Below, one piece after another: positions 24,035 to 61,874 of a stretch of DNA of 64,000 bases (the first letter of the stretch is position 1; each line of letters begins with the position of its first letter). Source of the stretch: Flavobacterium araucananum (GTDB taxonomy: Bacteria > Bacteroidota > Bacteroidia > Flavobacteriales > Flavobacteriaceae); assembly GCF_002222055.1 (NCBI RefSeq), contig NZ_MUGS01000021.1:1-64000 (forward strand). The letters are read 5' to 3'. The position numbers and the translations under genes are program-made. The notes under the pieces are model-generated. The model saw only the letters and a program-made list of their open reading frames with translations. It did not search any database and was not told where the DNA came from.

Positions 24035-24189
24035 CGTAATCGTTATTTTGCGATCAAAAAGGAAGATGGGCGATTACATCGGGAATTTTAAATAAAACAA
24101 CAACTTCATTGTGGTCTGTATTTATAGCAATAAAAATTAATTGAATCCAGAAATCCTGTGGGGTAAAATCCTTGACGTATTGATATTTC

Positions 24190-24402
24190 GCTCCGCTGGA
24201 GCTTAAACACAAAATCAATAAAATTTTCTATAAATATGATGCTCCGCTGGAGCTTTATTTTGATTATTCTAAAAAATTTCTGTCGAATTTGCTTTTTCTA
24301 TAAATATGATGCTTCAATGGGGCTTTATTTTGATGATTCTTTAATTACTCTGAAAATTTCTGCTGAATTTGATTTTCTATAAATATAATGCTTCACCGGA
24401 GC
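24190..24402. repeat. REP-like palindromes tandemly joined to copies of a gene end
   Basis: Palindromes GCTCCGCTGGAGC (24190-24202 and 24241-24253), GCTTCAATGGGGC (24311-24323) and GCTTCACCGGAGC (24390-24402), each preceded by CTATAAATATGATG or close. Between them lie partial copies of the 3' end of the adjacent gene: 24325-24371 reads, on the minus strand, NSAEIFRVIKESSK-stop, against NSTEVFRVIKESSK-stop in the real gene. A shorter decayed copy is at 24255-24291. Offsets are 79 and 70 bases. Confidence 0.75.
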
Positions 24403-24403
24403 T

Positions 24404-25819
24404 TTATTTTGATGATTCTTTAATTACTCTAAAAACTTCTGTTGAATTTGCTGCAACAATTTTTAGCAGATAAAAACCGGATGGTAAAGTAGATACATCG
24501 ATTTTACTATTGGTACTTTTCCCTTTTAAAACGCTTTTTTGTTCGAAATCGAAAAACTCATAATCAAAATTGGTATCAAAATTGGCAATCGAGACAATCG
24601 TAGCAACAGGATTTGGAAAAACAAAAGGCTTTTTTTGGGCTACAATTTCGGGGTCCGTTTTATTGCAGGCACTTTCTAATAATCCTGATAAATCTGTCTC
24701 TTCATAAACTAACGTATAATCGAGTTCTTTAGCTTTTTGAAACAGCTCGCATGCTTTTTTGTATTTGTGCTGATCGAGGTAAATAATTCCGAGATTTTTC
24801 ATCGCATACGAATTGTTTTTATCCATTTTCAATGCTTCTTTCAAATCCGCGATTCCTTTGTCTGATGCTCCTAACTTATGATATAGCAAACCACGGGTTG
24901 TTCTTAAATCTCTGCCACCATAGACCGCATTTCTTTCTATGATCGCCTTTTCTAATTGAAAAGCGACCTCAACATTCTCCATCGCTTTTTGATATTCGCC
25001 TGTGTCACTATACAACTTGGCAAGTGCAAATCTTGCAGAAGCATGATCCGGTTTTGCGGTTATAATTTTTTCTAAATAAAAAGCAGCCAGATCATACGCT
25101 TTTCGGTTTTGCAGTACTGCGGCAAAGTTGAATATAATGTGCAGATCATCAGGAGCATTTTTTACAGCTTTAAAAAAATAATTACAAGCAAAATTGTCCA
25201 TTTCGAGCGAGGCATAAATACTGGCTAGTCGATCATAGAGCTTGCTCCTGAAAGCATCTTTCTTTTTGGTTAAAGAATCTGCCGTTGCAATGTTTTTATT
25301 TTTTGGGTCTATATCTACAGAATATTCTACCTTTTTTAAATCTTCAAGAGCCAGAGTCGTGTTGCCCAGCGTAATACTTAAAACGCCACGATTGAATAAA
25401 TCATTGACCTTGGTGGGATTGTAGTTGGTTTTTGTATTGATTTCTGTTAATAGTTTCAGGGCTTTTTTGACTGCTTCTTCTCTGTCTTTGCCAAAAGGCA
25501 ATTTGTGATCTGTCCTGCTTACTAATTTTCCGTGCGAGAAATTCCAGGTTACGAGCTTTTCGCCGTTACTATTGTACTGAAAACCATTGGAGTCTTTGAT
25601 TCCTTTATCGTCATAAAAGAAAATCTCGTTCAGTTTTCCGTTGGGATAATAGGTTTTGGTACTGTCCGGCTTTTTATCCGGTCCGTACCAAACCTCTACA
25701 GACACAGTATGATTTTCATAAAAATATCGGGAAACATTATCTGTTGCAGCATCACTTTTTGTCTGACCGGATACAAAAACAGGCACCAACAATAAGGCAA
25801 ACAGTATTTTTTTATACAA
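24404..25819 (-). CDS. TPR protein with MORN-like N-terminus and T9SS sorting domain
   Basis: About 471 residues. No ATG is available at the 5' end; TTG 25819 gives a good signal peptide (YKKILFALLLVPVFVSGQ), and a second TTG at 25837 is possible. Residues about 45-95 (PDSTKTYYPNGKLNEIFFYDDKG) resemble MORN/YwqK-type repeats; about 110-370 are TPR units (ASARFALAKLYSDTGEYQKA; NSYAMKNLGIIYLDQHKYKKA). The last 75 residues (FPNPVATIVSI ... LPSGFYLLKI) are a type A T9SS C-terminal signal, so the protein is expected to be exported across the outer membrane. Its 3' end has been copied into the downstream repeat cluster. Confidence 0.85.
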   Translation of the reverse strand: MYKKILFALLLVPVFVSGQTKSDAATDNVSRYFYENHTVSVEVWYGPDKKPDSTKTYYPNGKLNEIFFYDDKGIKDSNGFQYNSNGEKLVTWNFSHGKLVSRTDHKLPFGKDREEAVKKALKLLTEINTKTNYNPTKVNDLFNRGVLSITLGNTTLALEDLKKVEYSVDIDPKNKNIATADSLTKKKDAFRSKLYDRLASIYASLEMDNFACNYFFKAVKNAPDDLHIIFNFAAVLQNRKAYDLAAFYLEKIITAKPDHASARFALAKLYSDTGEYQKAMENVEVAFQLEKAIIERNAVYGGRDLRTTRGLLYHKLGASDKGIADLKEALKMDKNNSYAMKNLGIIYLDQHKYKKACELFQKAKELDYTLVYEETDLSGLLESACNKTDPEIVAQKKPFVFPNPVATIVSIANFDTNFDYEFFDFEQKSVLKGKSTNSKIDVSTLPSGFYLLKIVAANSTEVFRVIKESSK

Positions 25820-27422: not shown

Positions 27423-27826
27423 TTTTTGACTTTTATAAGCACTAAATCATTAAGGGCTAAATTAATAAAGTTATTTCAGAAAGTTACTTGAACGCTTCAC
27501 AAAGATTCGCCAAGTTTTCTTTAAAAAAGTTTGAAATTAATCCTGTGAAAATATATTAATCGCGCAAAGACGCAGAGTCGCAAAGAAAACAAAACTTAGC
27601 GCCTCTGCGTCTTTGCGCGAGAATTCCAAGATATTCAATCAAAAAAACTTTGTGATTCTTTACGAAAAACCTTAGGATGGATTAAAATCCATCCCTACAA
27701 TATAAATCGAGCCGAAGGCTCTTTCTAAAAGAACTTTGCGAATCTTTGCGAAAAACCTTAGCGAACTTTGCGGTAAAAAACCTTTGAACCTATACCCCTC
27801 TGAATCTTTGAACCTTCAAAAAAAAA
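27423..27826. repeat. spacer of CTTTGCG microrepeats with one GTAG-type palindrome
   Basis: No gene. The words CGCAAAGACGCAGAG, TTTGCGAATC and CTTTGAACC recur. At 27675-27722 lies a single member of the GTAG family: GGATGGATTAAAATCCATCC followed by CTAC (GTAG on the other strand) and a small hairpin GAGCCGAAGGCTC. Its stem differs from the copies at 33.9 and 59.6-61 kb but still pairs. Confidence 0.65.
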
Positions 27827-29711: not shown

Positions 29712-29797
29712 GTGCCGTTAGCACTAAATATTGGTAGCGATTATAGTTAGAAATTCCTATTCCCGTTTTTCTACCAACATTTAGTGCCTAACGGCAC
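29712..29797. repeat. inverted palindrome doublet (GTGCC family), copy 1
   Basis: Left member GTGCCGTTAGCAC-TAAATATTGGTAG (29712-29737) and right member in inverse orientation (29771-29797). Each contains its own GTGCC/GGCAC hairpin and ends in GTAG, and the two pair with each other over about 26 bases. This is the REPIN arrangement. The related nested copy is at 37287-37528. Confidence 0.7.
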
Positions 29798-30500: not shown

Positions 30501-30798
30501 GATCTAAGAACAAACAGTAACTTTATTCTATCGAAAAAATGAAGCAAACGTAAATTATAGGTCAATTTGTTGGCTATTTTTTCTCGCAGATTTTGCAGAT
30601 CAAACAGATTTTTTTTAACCTATTGAATCTTTGAACTTGATTTAAGTAACCCAGATCAAAAAACAAACAGTAACTTTATTGTATCGGAAAAATTAAGCAA
30701 ACGAAAGTTATAGGTCTGTTTGTTAGCTGTTTTTTCTCGCAGATTTTGCAGATCGAGCAGATTTTTTTTAACCTATTGAATCTTTGAACTTGATTTAA
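30501..30798. repeat. tandem duplication, period 153 bases
   Basis: Two copies, 30501-30645 and 30654-30798, about 90% alike by eye, beginning GATC(T/A)A-n-ACAAACAGTAACTTTATT and ending TTTGAACTTGATTTA. They include the TTTTTCTCGCAGATTTTGCAG word also found at 40.2-40.7 kb. Non-coding; the rest of the spacer up to 31148 holds only microrepeats. Confidence 0.75.
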
Positions 30799-33616: not shown

Positions 33617-33839
33617 AACTTGTTTTTGTTTTTTGAAGGCAAAGGTTGCAAAATATATTTTGAAGATTTTAATCGGGATGCTAGTTTAAACTGGTTCTAT
33701 TTTATGGATTAAAATAATCGCGCAGAGGCGCAAAAGTTTTATAGATTGTGTTGAAATAATCTCGCAAAGTCGCGGAGGCGCAAAGTTTTAAAATTATATG
33801 TGTCGCCCCTACGGGACTTTTGTTTGTGGTCGTATTTCA

Positions 33840-33949
33840 TTTTCAACGGATTAAAATCCGTTGCTACAATATGTCACGAACCGAAGGCTCTCTTCAAAGT
33901 TCCGGAGGAACGATTTATTTTGTAGCAACGGATTTTAATCCGTTGAAAA
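33840..33949. repeat. inverted doublet of the GTAG palindrome (REPIN-like)
   Basis: Two arms of 30 bases, 33840-33869 and 33920-33949, are perfect reverse complements. Each contains its own palindrome (AACGGATTAAAATCCGTT or the same inverted) next to CTAC/GTAG. The 50-base centre holds GAACCGAAGGCTC and the palindrome GTTCCGGAGGAAC. The same parts in the same order make up the array at 59.6-61.1 kb. Confidence 0.8.
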
Positions 33950-40173: not shown

Positions 40174-40776
40174 CATTGAGAATTGGCACGCGGATTTTTA
40201 CTGATTGAACGGGTTTACGCAGATTGCTTTTAATTTATTGCGAAAAAAGTTTCACGCAGATAAAGCAGATTTAAGCAGATTTAAAAAAATCCTTTTAATC
40301 TTTTTAATCTGTGGCTAAAAAGTTCTCTCGCAGATTTGGCAGATTAAGCAGATTCTTTTTAATTCTTTGTAATTACATAATCTGTGGCAAAAAAAATTAG
40401 TGACCATTCGTGTAATTCGTGGCGAAAAAAGTTTCTCACAGATTTGGCAGATAAAGCAGATTGTTTTTGAAAATCTTTATAATCATCTGAATCTGTTGCG
40501 AAAAGATTAGTACAATTCGTGTAATTCGTGGCGAAAAAGTTCTCTCGCAGATAAAGCAGATAAAGCAGATATTTAAAAATCTTTGTAATCATTTGAATCT
40601 GTGGCAAAAAAATTAGTGACCATTCGTGTAATTCGTGGCGAAAAAGTTCTCTCGCAGATAAAGCAGATATTTAAAAATCTTTGAAATCATCTGAATCTGT
40701 GGCAAAAAAAATCGCGATTATTTGTGTAATTCGTGGCAAAAAACCTAAAACAAAACAAACTTGAAATAATTTTTCT
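40174..40776. repeat. degenerate tandem array, period about 100-110 bases
   Basis: Non-coding. Four to five diverged units, each with GTGTAATTCGTGGCGAAAA, CTCTCGCAGATAAAGCAGAT, AATCTTTGTAATCAT and GAATCTGTGGCAAAAA; the GTAATTCGTGGC core recurs near 40412, 40521, 40627 and 40725. Related words occur at 30501-30798 and 54921-55034. Units are contiguous and variable in length, so this is not a CRISPR. Confidence 0.7.
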
Positions 40777-57521: not shown

Positions 57522-58961
57522 ATGGTATTAAGCAGATTCTGGTTAACGATTTTTATTTCTTCGATTGTCTTTATTGTTGTCAGTTTATTTACTGCCAACA
57601 CTTATACGATTGATTCTATAATAAACGGAAAGAAAGACGATCCTATTCTGGTCTCTGAGAAATACATCGATCAACTTCCTGCTTTTATCAAAGACAGTAT
57701 AAAAAAAGCACCGGATCAAAGCATGATCATTAATCGTGATACGCTTAATGCTGATACTACTTATGTTTATAAAAATAAAACCGTAAAAATTTTCAGCGGT
57801 CTTCAAAAATCTGATGGTTTATTGCCTACTTGCAAGAGTACTTTAGTCGATCTTATCCTGCCGCTTATTGCCTATCTGGCTTTTTTCTGCGGATTAATGG
57901 AACTTCTGATTATTTCCGGAGCATCTGGAAAATTGGCAAAAATATTGAGTCCGGTATTTGTAAAGGTCTTTCCGAGTATTCCTGAAAACCATCCTTCAAT
58001 ATCGTACATGACCTTAAACTTTGCTGCTAATTTCTTAGGATTAGATTCGGCTGCAACCCCATTTGGACTTAAAGCTATGGAAAGTTTACAGGAAATAAAC
58101 CCCGACAAAGACAAAGCGAGTGATGCCCAAATTATGTTTATGTGTCTTCACGCTTCTGGTCTGACCTTGATTGCAACCTCTATTATTGGATATCGTGCTG
58201 CTGCAAATGCCAGTAATCCTGCCGATGTTATGCTGCCGTGTATCATCACTTCTTTCATTGGTACTATTGCTGCTTTTTTAATTGTGGGAATTAAACAAAA
58301 AATCAATTTTAAAAGTGCTTCTCTTCTCATCGTATTAATGGGATTAATTGCCGCCATTGTTGGTCTGCTGATGTATGTAAACCATTTGGATCTAATTGGT
58401 AAAAATTATTTTACTTCGAATCTTTCAGGATTGATATTGATTGGAATTATTGCCTTTACATTGATTTTTGCTTTTAAAAATGAAAAGAAATTCATTGAGG
58501 CAAATACAACTCCTTTCGACACCTTTGTGGTTGGAGCAAATAATGGGCTTAAAACAGGGGTTACTATTTTTCCTTATGTCCTTGGAATGTTGGTAGCGAT
58601 CTCTCTTTTTAGAAACAGTGGTTTATTTGAAATTATAAGTAACGGAATTGCATTTGTTTTCTCGAATATGGGAGTGAGTAAAGAAATCACAAATGCGTTA
58701 CCTGTAGCGATGCTTCGCCCTTTTAGCTCTGCCGGATCCCGCGGATTTTTGATAGATTCAATGAATACCTTTGGAGCAGATTCTTTGACTGCCAGACTAA
58801 GCAGTATTTTTCAGTGTAGCGCCGAAAGTACTTTTTATGTAATTGCCGTTTATTTTGGTTCAATCAATATCAAAAATACCCGTTATGCTTTGGGAACAAT
58901 GCTTTTGGTAGATCTTATTTGTGTGATCACAGCAATTTTTGTGGCAACATGGTTTTTTTAA
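57522..58961 (+). CDS. SpmA/SpmB-like nucleoside-recognition (Gate) membrane protein
   Basis: A 479-residue polytopic membrane protein with about ten helices in two Gate domains, corresponding to SpmA and SpmB joined in one chain as is usual in Bacteroidota. Recognisable segments: NFAANFLGLDSAATPFGLKAMESLQEINPDKDKASDAQIMF (SpmA-like) and PVAMLRPFSSAGSRGFLIDSMNTFGADS ... STFYVIAVYFGS (SpmB-like). The spore-maturation name is historical; a transport role is likely. Loop 35-100 faces outward. Single gene. Confidence 0.88.
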   Translation: MVLSRFWLTIFISSIVFIVVSLFTANTYTIDSIINGKKDDPILVSEKYIDQLPAFIKDSIKKAPDQSMIINRDTLNADTTYVYKNKTVKIFSGLQKSDGLLPTCKSTLVDLILPLIAYLAFFCGLMELLIISGASGKLAKILSPVFVKVFPSIPENHPSISYMTLNFAANFLGLDSAATPFGLKAMESLQEINPDKDKASDAQIMFMCLHASGLTLIATSIIGYRAAANASNPADVMLPCIITSFIGTIAAFLIVGIKQKINFKSASLLIVLMGLIAAIVGLLMYVNHLDLIGKNYFTSNLSGLILIGIIAFTLIFAFKNEKKFIEANTTPFDTFVVGANNGLKTGVTIFPYVLGMLVAISLFRNSGLFEIISNGIAFVFSNMGVSKEITNALPVAMLRPFSSAGSRGFLIDSMNTFGADSLTARLSSIFQCSAESTFYVIAVYFGSINIKNTRYALGTMLLVDLICVITAIFVATWFF

Positions 58962-59010
58962 ATCATTATATAATTTAAACCCTATTAAAATACGAATTCA
59001 TTTTATGTTA

Positions 59011-59030
59011 ACCGGATTTTAATTCGGTTT
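59011..59030. repeat. GTAG-family palindrome upstream of the transposase
   Basis: AACCGGATTTTAATTCGGTT, an imperfect palindrome related to those of the downstream array but without an adjacent GTAG. With the array at 59581-61120, the transposase gene is flanked on both sides by this family. Confidence 0.55.
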
Positions 59031-59110
59031 AAACGTAAGAATAAATTCAATATTTTGTAAGAATATTTTGTATTATTGTAATCCATTAAATCATTACAAA
59101 TAAACAAAAT

Positions 59111-59572
59111 ATGGCAAATACATATCATCAAATTTATATTCAGGCAATTTTTGCTGTAAAATATAGAGAAGCAATTATTACTGATGAGTTTAAATCTAAA
59201 ATATTGGGTGTAATTGGAAATTTAATAAATGAGACTGGTTGTAAAACGATAATCATAAATGGGACTGAAGACCATATTCATTGCTTTTTAGCATTAAAAC
59301 CTTCCATTTCTATCTCTGACTTAATGAAAATTGTAAAATCAAAATCATCAAAATACATTAATGATCATCGATTAACAAAACACAGATTTGAATGGCAAGA
59401 GGGATTTGGGGCTTTTTCTTATAGTAAATCTCATATCAATGCTGTTTATAAATACATTCAAAATCAAGAAGAGCATCATAAAAAGCATAATTTCAAAGAG
59501 GAATATTTATCTATTTTGGAGAAATTCAACGTTTCCTTTGACGAAAGATATATTTTTCAAAATCTAATGTAA
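59111..59572 (+). CDS. IS200/REP-associated (RAYT-type) Y1 transposase
   Basis: A 153-residue single-strand HUH nuclease. EDHIHCFLAL carries the metal-binding His55-x-His57. The helix AVYKYIQNQEEHH has the candidate nucleophile Tyr115 and nearby Gln119. YHQIYIQAIFAVKYRE at the start and FEWQEGFGAFSYSKSHI before the Tyr helix are typical of TnpA/RAYT. There is no tnpB and no obvious IS200 ends. Instead the gene is followed directly by a 1.5 kb palindrome array, which fits a domesticated REP-associated transposase. It appears intact, so it may be active. Confidence 0.9.
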   Translation: MANTYHQIYIQAIFAVKYREAIITDEFKSKILGVIGNLINETGCKTIIINGTEDHIHCFLALKPSISISDLMKIVKSKSSKYINDHRLTKHRFEWQEGFGAFSYSKSHINAVYKYIQNQEEHHKKHNFKEEYLSILEKFNVSFDERYIFQNLM

Positions 59573-59580
59573 CATATTAT

Positions 59581-61120
59581 AGAAAAGCTCTCCAATATAA
59601 ATCGAGCCTACAGCTCTTTATCTTAATTCTTTTTATGTAAACCGGATTAAAATCCGGCCCTACAATATGTGATAAGCCTACGGCTCTTTATCTTAATTCC
59701 TTTTATGCAAACCGGATTAAAATCCGGCCCTACAATATGTGTCAAGCCAACGGCTCTTTATCTTAATTCTTTTTATGTAAACCGGATTAAAATCCGGCCT
59801 TACAATATATGCCAAGCCAACGGCTCTTTTTTAAAATTCTTTATAAAATTCCGTAGGAATGCTTTATTTTGTAGCAACGGATTTTAATCCGTTGAAAATA
59901 TTAATCCCGATTTTAAAGTTCCGGAGGAAAGAAACATATTAAATTTAGATTTTGTATTAAATGCATATAAAGCAAATTTTAAAATCATGAAAAGACCTTG
60001 TTCACATTAAAATATAGCTCTACAATATGTGCCAAGCCTACAGCTCTTTATCTTAATTCCTTTTATGAAGACCGGATTAAAATCCGGCCCTACAATATGT
60101 GATAAGCCTACGGGTCTTTTTTAAAATTCTTTATAAAATTCCGTAGGAATGCTTTATTTTGTAGCAACGGATTTTAATCCGTTAAAAATATTAATCCTGA
60201 TTTTAAAGTTCCGGAGGAACGAAACATATTAAATTTAGATTTTGTATTAAATGCATATACAAAAAATTGCAAAATCATGAAAAAACCTTGTTCTCACTAA
60301 AATCTTGCTCTACAATATGTGCCAAGCCTACAGCTCTTTATCTTAATACTTTTTATGTAAACCGGATTAAAATCCGGCCCTACAATATGTGATAAGCCTA
60401 CGGCTCTTTTTTAAAATTCTTTATAAAATTCCGGAGGAATGCTTTATTTTGTAGCAACGGATTTTAATACGTTAAAAATATTAATCCTGATTTTAAAGTT
60501 CCGGAGGAACGAAACATATTAAATTTAGATTTTGTATTAAATGCATATACAAAAAATTGTAAAATCATGAAAAAACCTTGTTCTCACTAAAATCTTGCTC
60601 TACAATATTTGCCAAGCCTACAGCTCTTTATCTTAATACTTTTTATGTAAACCGGATCAAAATCCGGCCTTACAATATGTGATAAGCCTACGGCTCTTTA
60701 TCTTAATTCCTTTTATGCAAACCGGATTAAAATCCGGCCTTACAATATATGCCAAGCCTATGGCTCTTCTTTAAAGATTTTTATAAAATTCCGGAGGAAT
60801 GCTTTATTTTGTAGCAACGGATTTTAATCCGTTAAAAATATTAATCCCGATTTTAAAGTTCCGGAGGAACGAAACATATTAAATTTAGATTTTGTATTAA
60901 ATGCATGTAAAACAAATTTTAAAATCATGAAAAAAACTTGTTCACACTAAAATATAGCTCTACAATATGTGCAAAGCCAACAGCTCTTTTTTAAAATTCT
61001 TTATAAAATTCCGGAGGAATGCTTTATTTTGTAGCAACGGATTTTAATCCGTTGAAAATATTAATCCCAAATTTTAAAGTTCCGTAGGAACGATACATAT
61101 TAAATTTAGATTTTATAACC
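59581..61120. repeat. nested palindrome array: 70-base units within 290-base higher-order units
   Basis: Type A palindrome CCGGATTAAAATCCGG starts at 59642, 59712, 59782, 60072, 60362, 60652 (one change) and 60722; neighbouring repeats are exactly 70 bases apart where tandem. Type B, GTAG followed by CAACGGATTTTAATCCGTTG or close, has GTAG at 59871, 60161, 60451, 60811 and 61031 (spacings 290, 290, 360, 220, i.e. 290, 290, 290+70, 290-70). Type A is followed by CCCTAC or CCTTAC on the plus strand (GTAG on the other strand for the former). Each block also holds GTTCCGGAGGAAC-like palindromes and AAGCCTACGGCTC. Non-coding. Confidence 0.9.
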
Positions 61121-61145
61121 ATATCAATTGTCAATTTTAAAGACC

Positions 61146-61874
61146 ATGAAACCACAAACTCTTTTTATTTTATTTGTTTTAATTGGTTGTCAAAAACCAA
61201 AACCTGTAAATCAAGTTATTACTGCGGCTCCGGATAGCAAAACGGAAGTCATTGCGGTTAAAGAAAGTTTCTTAAAAACAGACACTATTTCTATTGCCGG
61301 AGATGGCGAAATATCGAAAGATAATTTTGTTTTGGCACATCTTGTCAATCAAAAAGCAGATAAAGACAGTATCGTAACTGCAAAATACCAACTTGATTTT
61401 TATTTGAATAAAAGCAAAACCAGTTCTTCAAAAATTACAATTACAGGAGTAGAGAAAGGATCAGAATGGGGCGGAATATGCGGATTAGGCAGAGAAAGTG
61501 TAAAAAATTCTCCCTTTATTCAAATTAGTTTTGGATATCCTGCTTGTGGTTACAACCAAAGCAACTATCTGTATTATTTAAAAAACAATGATTTGCAATT
61601 GGTTTATGAATGGTATACAATGTCTGATAGTGGTTGGGGAAATTGGGTTGAGTTCGAAAATCCAACACCAAAAGCTAATCCTGAATCTTTTTACTGCAAG
61701 ACAGTTGTTTTTGAACCGGATGATAACGACGAGAATATGGGAACAGTCAAACATTCCGATTCTATTCTATTTCGCTTAAGCGGAAATCACTGGAAAAAAC
61801 AGTTGCTCTCGGCAAAAGACAAGACTTATTTCGAGAAAAAAATGAGTTTTGATGCATTTCATAATATTAAATAA
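61146..61874 (+). CDS. lipoprotein of unknown function
   Basis: A 242-residue protein from ATG 61146 with a short signal and lipobox (TLFILFVLIGC, Cys15). The mature part begins with a Pro/Lys linker and then a beta-rich domain without a recognised family; GGICGLGRES and FGYPACGYNQSNYLYYL hold two Cys that may form a disulfide. Trp-rich segment WYTMSDSGWGNWVEF. Placed between the repeat array and fumarase; single gene. Confidence 0.7.
   Translation: MKPQTLFILFVLIGCQKPKPVNQVITAAPDSKTEVIAVKESFLKTDTISIAGDGEISKDNFVLAHLVNQKADKDSIVTAKYQLDFYLNKSKTSSSKITITGVEKGSEWGGICGLGRESVKNSPFIQISFGYPACGYNQSNYLYYLKNNDLQLVYEWYTMSDSGWGNWVEFENPTPKANPESFYCKTVVFEPDDNDENMGTVKHSDSILFRLSGNHWKKQLLSAKDKTYFEKKMSFDAFHNIK

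Follow-up and report, generated by a model that had tools for sequence, protein, structure and literature searches.

A class-1 Y1 transposase gene and its neighbouring palindromes in Flavobacterium araucananum: a probable cognate pair resembling REP/RAYT systems

In the systems formed by repetitive extragenic palindromic (REP) sequences and REP-associated tyrosine transposases (RAYTs; TnpAREP, class 2), the passages drawn on here from three publications (PMC3116915, PMC3733652, PMC6006769) describe a mostly single, vertically inherited Y1 gene with GTAG-footed hairpins at its borders, inverted pairs and dispersed copies of these hairpins, and tandem clusters, beside the gene, of REPINs (REP doublets forming a hairpin), the last being known from Pseudomonas fluorescens SBW25 (PMC3116915). 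The same features recur at the locus considered here, which lies in a stretch of 64,000 nucleotides of Flavobacterium araucananum (contig NZ_MUGS01000021.1, positions 1 to 64,000; hereafter “the window”) and consists of a Y1 HUH transposase gene at 59111-59572 followed by 1.5 kb of palindromes. Gene and palindromes are quite probably a cognate pair of REP/RAYT-like character, on a different branch of the Y1 enzymes (class 1, fitting subclass 1.2). The locus departs from REP/RAYT systems in two respects: its protein is of class 1 (motif Y---Q--HH, not Y---NP), and GTAG stands between a short 5-bp hairpin, 10 nucleotides (nt) upstream, and a long hairpin.

Three other described groups bear on the comparison. 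Subclass 1.2 of the TnpA-Y1 proteins, as defined by Quentin et al. 2018 (PMC6006769), resembles the window protein in its DH[IV]H, WQ and YI-NQ--HH motifs, its length of about 150 residues, its occurrence in Bacteroidota and its low copy number; in the part of that survey used here it is listed with Y---Q--HH, low copy number, Cyanobacteria and Bacteroidetes, no REP and generally no typical IS200 end structures, whereas at the present locus and its relatives there are hairpins at fixed positions and dispersed families. The same source describes canonical REPs beside genes of subclass 2.4, which is abundant in Bacteroidetes. The IS200/IS605 insertion sequences (IS608, ISDra2; subclass 1.1) are alike in fold, in motifs and in having a hairpin with a 3' tetranucleotide, which the present arrangement recalls; here, in contrast, there is no near-identical copy in the same genome, the gene occupies a conserved slot under purifying selection, and the units are mostly inverted between its two sides. 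Finally, TIRYT genes and TIRtrons (Di Nocera et al. 2013, PMC3733652) combine a Y1 gene with flanking inverted repeats and sometimes with repeat families, but hairpins of the window type are short, often spaced at a pitch of about 50 nt, and tagged with RTAG.

As to the distribution of such repeats, the list for GTAG repeats in the portion of Di Nocera et al. (PMC3733652) used here includes Proteobacteria, Cyanobacteria, Chloroflexi and the PVC group, Bacteroidetes being named there only for CGTC repeats, while the RepRanger paper (PMC12306157), in the part available, counts hairpin-type REPs in two Flavobacterium genomes with no mention of RAYT or transposase. A search of the open-licence literature, judged mostly by title and the opening of the abstract, turned up no paper in which subclass 1.2 or the Y1 genes of Flavobacterium are connected with REPs; as far as these searches show, what is new is that subclass-1.2-like genes are paired with hairpin-9/10-RTAG elements and with dispersed families matched to them. 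What has been computed is the family placement (from motif and model), the anatomy of the elements, their co-occurrence with the gene, their presence or absence at the slot, clade specificity and purifying selection; binding, RTAG cleavage, mobilisation and array formation by the enzyme are what we infer.

The transposase gene and its family

The preliminary description of this DNA had proposed an intact Y1 HUH transposase of RAYT type, and the first part of this has held up well. The open reading frame (ORF) at 59111-59572 is free of disruption and encodes 153 residues that match Y1_Tnp (PF01797) with 92.1 bits against a cut-off of 23. In the strict sense, however, the label “RAYT-type” had to be given up. 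The protein scores only 25 bits with the RAYT model NF047646 of NCBIfam (curated cut-off 80) and passes the IS200/IS605 model NF033573 (74.4 bits, cut-off 55); the class-2 motif Y---NP is absent, its place being taken by YIQNQEEHH, which under the class rule for TnpA-Y1 catalytic motifs (taken from the relevant part of PMC6006769) makes it a class-1 enzyme; and a phmmer search of the Protein Data Bank (PDB) sequences with E values up to 10 listed IS200/IS605 enzymes of the IS608/ISDra2 type as the nearest relatives and no entry 4er8, which is TnpAREP.

Comparison of folds gives a picture that is less sharply divided, since 4er8 was recovered by both fold searches. Using an AlphaFold model of the window protein (pLDDT 87.6, 56 sequences), the IS608/ISDra2 group gave Z scores of 11.6-12.6 over 105-120 residues, and 4er8 gave 10.2 over 125. 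Taking motifs, NCBIfam model and nearest PDB sequences together, the protein falls in class 1, on the IS200 side, and fits subclass 1.2, for which the criteria are DH[IV]H, WQ, Y---Q--HH and a length of about 148 residues (here DHIH, WQ, YIQNQEEHH and 153); this subclass assignment is one by motif, the tree used below covering relatives of the query only. By the same motif the catalytic tyrosine would be Y115. The closest named matches, among the best 80 of 574 confirmed relatives, are from F. piscis, F. cutihirudinis and F. denitrificans.

A PF01797 search found five Y1 genes in the genome. None of the other four is a near-identical copy of the window gene: three are 53, 49 and 37% identical to it, and the fourth, which has stops in its frame, is 36% identical over a part. 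A class-2 RAYT also left a remnant in this genome, a 76-residue open frame at C55:33536-33667 (locus L210).

The palindromes: array, unit and copies elsewhere in the genome

The array contains 12 long palindromes, which follow one another as A A A B A B A B A A B B; A and B are the names given to them in the preliminary description, which took them for two separate types. The palindromes themselves are real enough, but A and B share the same core and are the inverted halves of one REPIN-like unit. The A half reads CCGGATT-AA-AATCCGG, then CC and CTAC (or CTTAC, in three of the seven), while the B half is GTAG followed by CAACGGATT-TT-AATCCGTTG. The features of the locus, with two further members of the family found in the window, are as follows (an unstranded feature is given as such).

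59010-59029, unstranded: decayed palindrome AACCGGATTTTAATTCGGTT upstream of the gene
59111-59572, + strand: Y1 HUH transposase gene, 153 residues, DHIH / WQ / YIQNQEEHH, subclass 1.2 by motif
59605-61117, unstranded: whole palindrome array of 1.5 kb, with seven A halves, five B halves and four complete A-B pairs
59642-59657, - strand: A half, long hairpin CCGGATT(AA)AATCCGG then CCCTAC (GTAG on the - strand)
59712-59727, - strand: A half, long hairpin
59782-59894, unstranded: REPIN 1, A half 59782-59797 and B half 59875-59894
59848-59874, + strand: short hairpin ATTCC(GTA)GGAAT, 10-nt spacer and GTAG, before the B half of REPIN 1
60072-60184, unstranded: REPIN 2, A half 60072-60087 and B half 60165-60184
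60362-60474, unstranded: REPIN 3, A half 60362-60377 and B half 60455-60474 (one arm base changed)
60652-60667, - strand: extra A half
60722-60834, unstranded: REPIN 4, A half 60722-60737 and B half 60815-60834
61035-61054, + strand: last B half, 220 past the previous B
33844-33945, unstranded: lone complete REPIN belonging to the array's family, A and B 82 apart
27675-27721, - strand: single variant half-element of the array's family, with a GAGCC hairpin, 10 nt, GTAG and an ATGGATT hairpin

The spacings had been described as 70 between A palindromes, and 290, 290, 360 and 220 between B palindromes that follow GTAG, and all of this is confirmed. The A cores lie at 59643, 59713, 59783, 60073, 60363, 60653 and 60723 (spacings 70, 70, 290, 290, 290, 70), the B cores at 59878, 60168, 60458 (the copy with one altered arm base), 60818 and 61038 (spacings 290, 290, 360, 220), and the program TRF recovers periods of 70, 290 and 360. 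On the + strand each of the five B copies is directly adjoined by GTAG, and the A copies, read on the - strand, have GTAG in four cases and GTAA in three. In the four complete pairs the A-B distance is 95 nt. Exact as the spacing is, the sequence has diverged, the other four 130-nt units (family D2) being 91-94% identical to the reference copy, and the repeat units take in flanking sequence. A scan of 58900-61300 against Rfam gave no match.

Outside the array, the A-B distance is 81 for the array at contig C74, 79-81 at C53 and 82 for the lone REPIN at 33.8 kb, with two REPs inverted and able to fold as one hairpin; the stretch 33838-33948, folded as single-stranded DNA (ssDNA), gives -35.4 kcal/mol with a z score of -10.1. 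The complete unit in the window clade (the group of closely related genes defined below) comprises the short hairpin, 10 nt, GTAG, 0-3 nt, and the long hairpin with its 2-nt loop. Genome-wide enrichment, which the preliminary description had made a condition of its reading, is clear: the core CGGATTNNAATCCG matches 66 sites in the genome of 5.9 Mb, where a reversed control pattern matches none. The window gene is thus flanked by GTAG-footed hairpins that are repeated in the genome, which is one of the features by which RAYT genes are recognised. Further support for the composite structure comes from 124 distinct elements found by their spacer, GTA[GA] and one arm-end base, in which 87 have all five pairs of the short stem (10 expected by shuffling) and 70 the full 7-bp long hairpin (0.1 by shuffling), with many compensatory variants in the stems; it must be borne in mind that these 124 are not independent, because array copies and related loci are included.

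Higher-order arrays occur also on contigs C53, C64 and C74 of the same genome (loci L026, L027 and L028), with periods of about 392, 174 and 258-265 respectively, the array at C74 containing seven REPINs; these contigs have no PF01797 match. The array form had been picked out at the outset as the notable part of the locus, but since tandem REPIN clusters beside a RAYT are already known in SBW25, and similar arrays exist in this genome away from Y1 genes, it is not where the novelty lies. How the array came about is a separate question from whether gene and palindromes belong together, and the chances are about even that the pairing is real while the 70/290 order owes its growth not to the enzyme but to slippage in replication or unequal recombination. 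The 91-94% identity of units that include flank would fit such a history, as would the arrays of other periods far from Y1 genes and the ordered clusters of SBW25, in which (according to the part of PMC3116915 used here) REPINs are repeated with their flanks; slippage alone, however, does not predict that several relatives should have rows of hairpins to either side of the gene.

Related genes, the genus and the conserved slot

The surroundings of related genes were read at 80 loci from named genomes, corresponding to the best 80 relatives mentioned above. In the gaps adjoining the Y1 gene there are 8.5 hairpins per kb (373 in 44.0 kb), compared with 2.9/kb in the remaining gaps of these loci (256 in 88.3 kb) and about 1/kb in shuffled sequence; hairpin density is higher beside the Y1 gene in 67 of the 73 usable loci (p=2.6e-12). 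The hairpins peak near -75, -20, +15 and +65 relative to the gene (75 upstream and 77 downstream flanks), and at least two of these four positions are filled for 57 of 79 related genes as against 14 of 400 control genes, some of which are flanked by coding DNA, a circumstance that favours the contrast; the within-locus comparison of gap densities is the fairer one. Of 360 spacings listed between 15 and 199 nt, 170 fall at 45-54 nt. Loop orientation leans one way upstream of the gene (124 to 36) and the opposite way downstream of it (66 to 114; p=2e-14), with 183 loops that lack an orientation set aside, 96 upstream and 87 downstream.

Equally regular is the position of RTAG. Among hairpins picked for perfect stems at the fixed positions, 58 of the 92 distal ones are followed by RTAG at an offset of 6-10 (4.7 by shuffling), 53 of them at exactly 9, compared with 1 of the 80 proximal ones (2.6 expected). 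When all 80 loci were scanned for a hairpin, an offset and RTAG, offset 9 gave 173 sites near the gene and offset 10 gave 29, with 1-18 at each other offset, and more than 700 bp from the gene there were still 30 at offset 9 against 1-8 at each other offset. In 464 kb of the window's own genome (the window itself plus 20 stretches taken at round numbers) offset 9 accounts for 16 such sites and offset 10 for 4, compared with 2.1 for each other offset, and of these 20 sites 16 lie outside ORFs of at least 100 residues. The layout recalls the right end of IS200/IS605 elements, where a guide lying directly 5' of the foot of the hairpin serves to recognise the tetranucleotide at the end (as described in the part of PMC6006769 used here). 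RTAG placed 9-10 nt past a short hairpin is most likely the cleavage signal of a REP-like system. The fixed-position hairpins and RTAG offsets at related loci contradict the reported trait of subclass 1.2, namely no REP and generally no end hairpins.

It could be argued that these are ordinary intergenic hairpins (terminators or stabilisers of mRNA), with arrays grown by slippage and a transposase adjacent by chance or through a shared tolerance of such sites. Hairpins are indeed common between genes, as the 2.9/kb away from Y1 genes shows, there are arrays without any Y1 gene, and the repeat units include flank. Such an origin would nevertheless leave unaccounted for the fixed positions around genes of several Bacteroidota families, the opposed loop orientation, the 45-54 nt pitch, the fixed offset of RTAG, and a slot motif (see below) that is present or absent together with the gene; this explanation is already strongly disfavoured, and very unlikely to be right.

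The full composite unit is confined to a narrower group. In its strict form it occurs in 26 of 101 tree rows (and in none of 80 shuffled flanks), 25 of these falling within one clade of 30 rows (SH-aLRT 98 in a quick tree), here called the window clade, with the remaining one on a long branch. Related genes outside this clade have a short hairpin, 9 nt and RTAG. The motif of spacer and GTA[GA] is found at 20 of 21 window-clade loci in the genus, at none of nine loci of other Y1 genes, and at 1 of 12 loci of class-2 RAYTs, whose flanks were compared by motif count only.

A survey of 150 genomes of the genus found 69 with a Y1 match, each having 1-6 matches with fragments included, i.e. diverged paralogues at low copy number; 21 have a gene at least 64% identical to that of the window, and two more have relics. 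Element copies, counted with the pattern GGAAYGNNNTATNTTGTAG taken from the window's own genome (one control match in all), number 128 in these 23 genomes and 17 in the 127 others, and 16 of the 23 genomes but 12 of the 127 have at least one copy (p=2.9e-9). Leaving out the window's own genome, the figures are 15 of 22 (97 copies) and 12 of 127 (p=1.1e-8), though these p values ignore kinship between genomes and the pattern derives from one of them. It had been anticipated that the palindromes would be commoner where the transposase is present, and so they are, the comparison being between species of the genus rather than strains of one species. In genomes smaller than 5 Mb the element is present in 7 of the 12 with gene or relic and in 5 of the 111 others.

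Given the remnant at C55:33536-33667, and given that class-2 RAYTs over the cut-off occur in 58 of the 150 genomes, though not in the window's own, one might suppose that a class-2 RAYT, since decayed here, spread the REPINs and that the neighbouring Y1 gene is a bystander. In genomes without the clade gene the element is indeed commoner where there is a class-2 RAYT (9 of 46 against 3 of 81, p=0.005), a weaker effect. Yet the effect of the clade gene holds in both groups of genomes: where no class-2 RAYT exceeds the cut-off, the element is present in 8 of 11 with the clade gene and 3 of 81 lacking it (p=2.7e-7), and where one does, in 8 of 12 and 9 of 46 respectively (p=0.003). The contrast of 1 of 12 with 20 of 21 loci for the motif points the same way, and genomes G000 (31 copies) and G102 (21 copies) have no class-2 gene over the cut-off. 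A class-2 origin is most improbable.

The position of the gene is itself informative. In 15 of the 21 clade genomes it is, by coordinates, next downstream of one conserved gene (window 57522-58961), and both relics are in the same slot. Reading the 30 best slots of the 119 genomes that have this neighbour gene, the slot motif was present in all 11 with gene or relic and in none of the 19 counted as without; among these, the gene of G087 was counted by hand as present, the slot of G090, counted as gene-minus, holds a short decayed Y1 fragment, and, gene ends having been located crudely, the “intergenic” stretches of gene-minus slots include other coding sequence. Only one of the 21 genomes, G138, has two window-clade genes, one in the slot (L125) and one at C1:2414981.

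For the pair G000-G113 the ratio of non-synonymous to synonymous divergence (dN/dS) of the Y1 gene is about 0.14 (dN 0.14, dS 0.98), its neighbour having dN 0.01 and dS 0.89; the ratio is higher for the Y1 gene than for the neighbour, and in 45 pairs from 10 slot genomes the dN of the Y1 gene is well below its dS. Horizontal replacement at the slot was considered for G113, where the neighbour is 99% and the Y1 protein 74% identical, but fast protein evolution is the simpler reading because the two synonymous divergences are similar; in other pairs, where dS is in excess, replacement may have occurred. On this evidence the gene is mostly single, vertically inherited and under purifying selection, with the housekeeping-like conservation that is expected of a RAYT.

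These observations bear directly on the possibility that this is a recently active insertion sequence of IS200 type, with the hairpins as its ends and the dispersed copies as miniature inverted-repeat transposable elements. The score with the IS200/IS605 model, the nearest structures (transposases of the IS608/ISDra2 type) and the hairpin followed by a tetranucleotide, so like a right end, all lend themselves to it. Against this stand the lack of a near-identical gene copy in the same genome (the others being only 53, 49, 37 and, in part, 36% identical), the shared slot in 15 of 21 clade genomes, the low dN/dS, and flanking units that tend to be inverted between the two sides, and on the whole it is unlikely.

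It must also be said that a number of results, besides the coding flanks of control genes and the kinship already mentioned, tell against a cognate pairing. Among genomes of at least 5 Mb the difference in element presence is not significant (9 of 11 against 7 of 16, p=0.055), although that in copy number is (p=0.002); 7 of the 23 genomes with gene or relic lack an exact pattern match and 12 of the 127 gene-less ones have one; the element is also commoner in genomes with only other Y1 genes (9 of 46 against 3 of 81); and the strict composite element is absent from 3 of the 21 window-clade loci in the genus. As noted, there are higher-order arrays nowhere near a Y1 gene. For the REPINs at 33.8 and 27.6 kb no exact empty site could be identified, and of six relatives examined for the 33.8-kb unit one has a similar unit, four have none and the sixth was not read, the gap being too diverged for junctions to be defined. 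The dS of the Y1 gene exceeds that of the neighbour in many of the 45 pairs and is saturated in four, so some exchange at the slot may have taken place. Finally, narrow patterns for three other Y1 families of this genome found only 2, 5 and 4 sites, and the pattern made for another clade matched just 2 in all 150 genomes. A narrow pattern can under-count, as is evident from the family of the Y1 gene at C54:120191, which gave 2 sites at first and then, with a better pattern, 32 dispersed sites within 3 mismatches (control 0); the statement that only the window clade has amplified its element was withdrawn for that family.

Other families, a proposed mechanism and significance

Different small palindromes lie beside each of the other four Y1 genes of the genome. 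The sites of the 5-site family are all local, as are 2 of the 4 in the 4-site family, and the family of the Y1 gene at C48 is represented in the sampled sequence only by scattered look-alikes. Within the window, a 79-bp array at 24188-24440 with hairpins of the GCTCC(nnn)GGAGC type and ATAG at offset 9 belongs to the family of the C54:120191 flanks. Single hairpin-9 nt-RTAG sites of other families are seen at 29797, 37317, 37506, 14153 and 57325, and GTGCC ... TAAATGTTGGTAG sites among such single hairpins resemble the flank of the Y1 gene at C48. Upstream of the Y1 gene at C13, whose frame is broken by three stops, lies a long array of AGTGC(TCC)GCACT and GCTCTTTCAGAGC hairpins (L025, 6400-7170) that is local only. 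Outside the hairpin families altogether, the window also contains tandem arrays at 40311-40743 and 30501-30798, with 98-bp and 153-bp units and repeats of the TCGCAGATTT type.

If gene and palindromes are indeed a cognate pair, a mechanism along the following lines may be proposed. The enzyme would bind a short hairpin (a 5-bp stem with a loop of 3-4 nt) in ssDNA, probably on the lagging-strand template, and Y115 would cut at RTAG 9-10 nt 3' of the hairpin, much as IS200/IS605 enzymes do at the right end. In the window clade a second, longer hairpin (7-9 bp, 2-nt loop) would have been gained just past GTAG, and two such half-elements facing each other would give the REPIN. Units would be dispersed because the enzyme mobilises them in trans, whereas the gene for the most part keeps to a single place in the chromosome, passed on vertically and held under purifying selection. 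Duplication of a REPIN together with its flank might then build up tandem arrays, whether by repeated enzyme-mediated joining or by replication slippage or recombination at the hairpins.

More broadly, the balance of probability leans towards a class-1 Y1 enzyme having been independently domesticated into a maker of REPs. In the Bacteroidota, with relatives in Ignavibacteriota, Verrucomicrobiota and Planctomycetota, subclass 1.2 would then be a widespread REP-type system, recognisable by a short hairpin, 9-10 nt and RTAG that recur at a pitch of about 50 nt on both sides of the gene; a single genome would hold several families, each with its own gene, and one clade, mainly in Flavobacterium, would have evolved a GTAG-footed REPIN like that of E. 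coli.

For a Y1 subclass that its defining survey gave as REP-less, this provides a lead at the level of function together with a concrete predicted substrate, and the rule of hairpin, spacer and RTAG is one that can be tested with single oligonucleotides. The conserved slot, with its gene-plus, relic and gene-minus genomes, constitutes a natural series bearing on what maintains such genes. It also suggests that REP-like systems arose from the IS200 side as well as from that of the RAYTs, which bears on the domestication of transposases in general.

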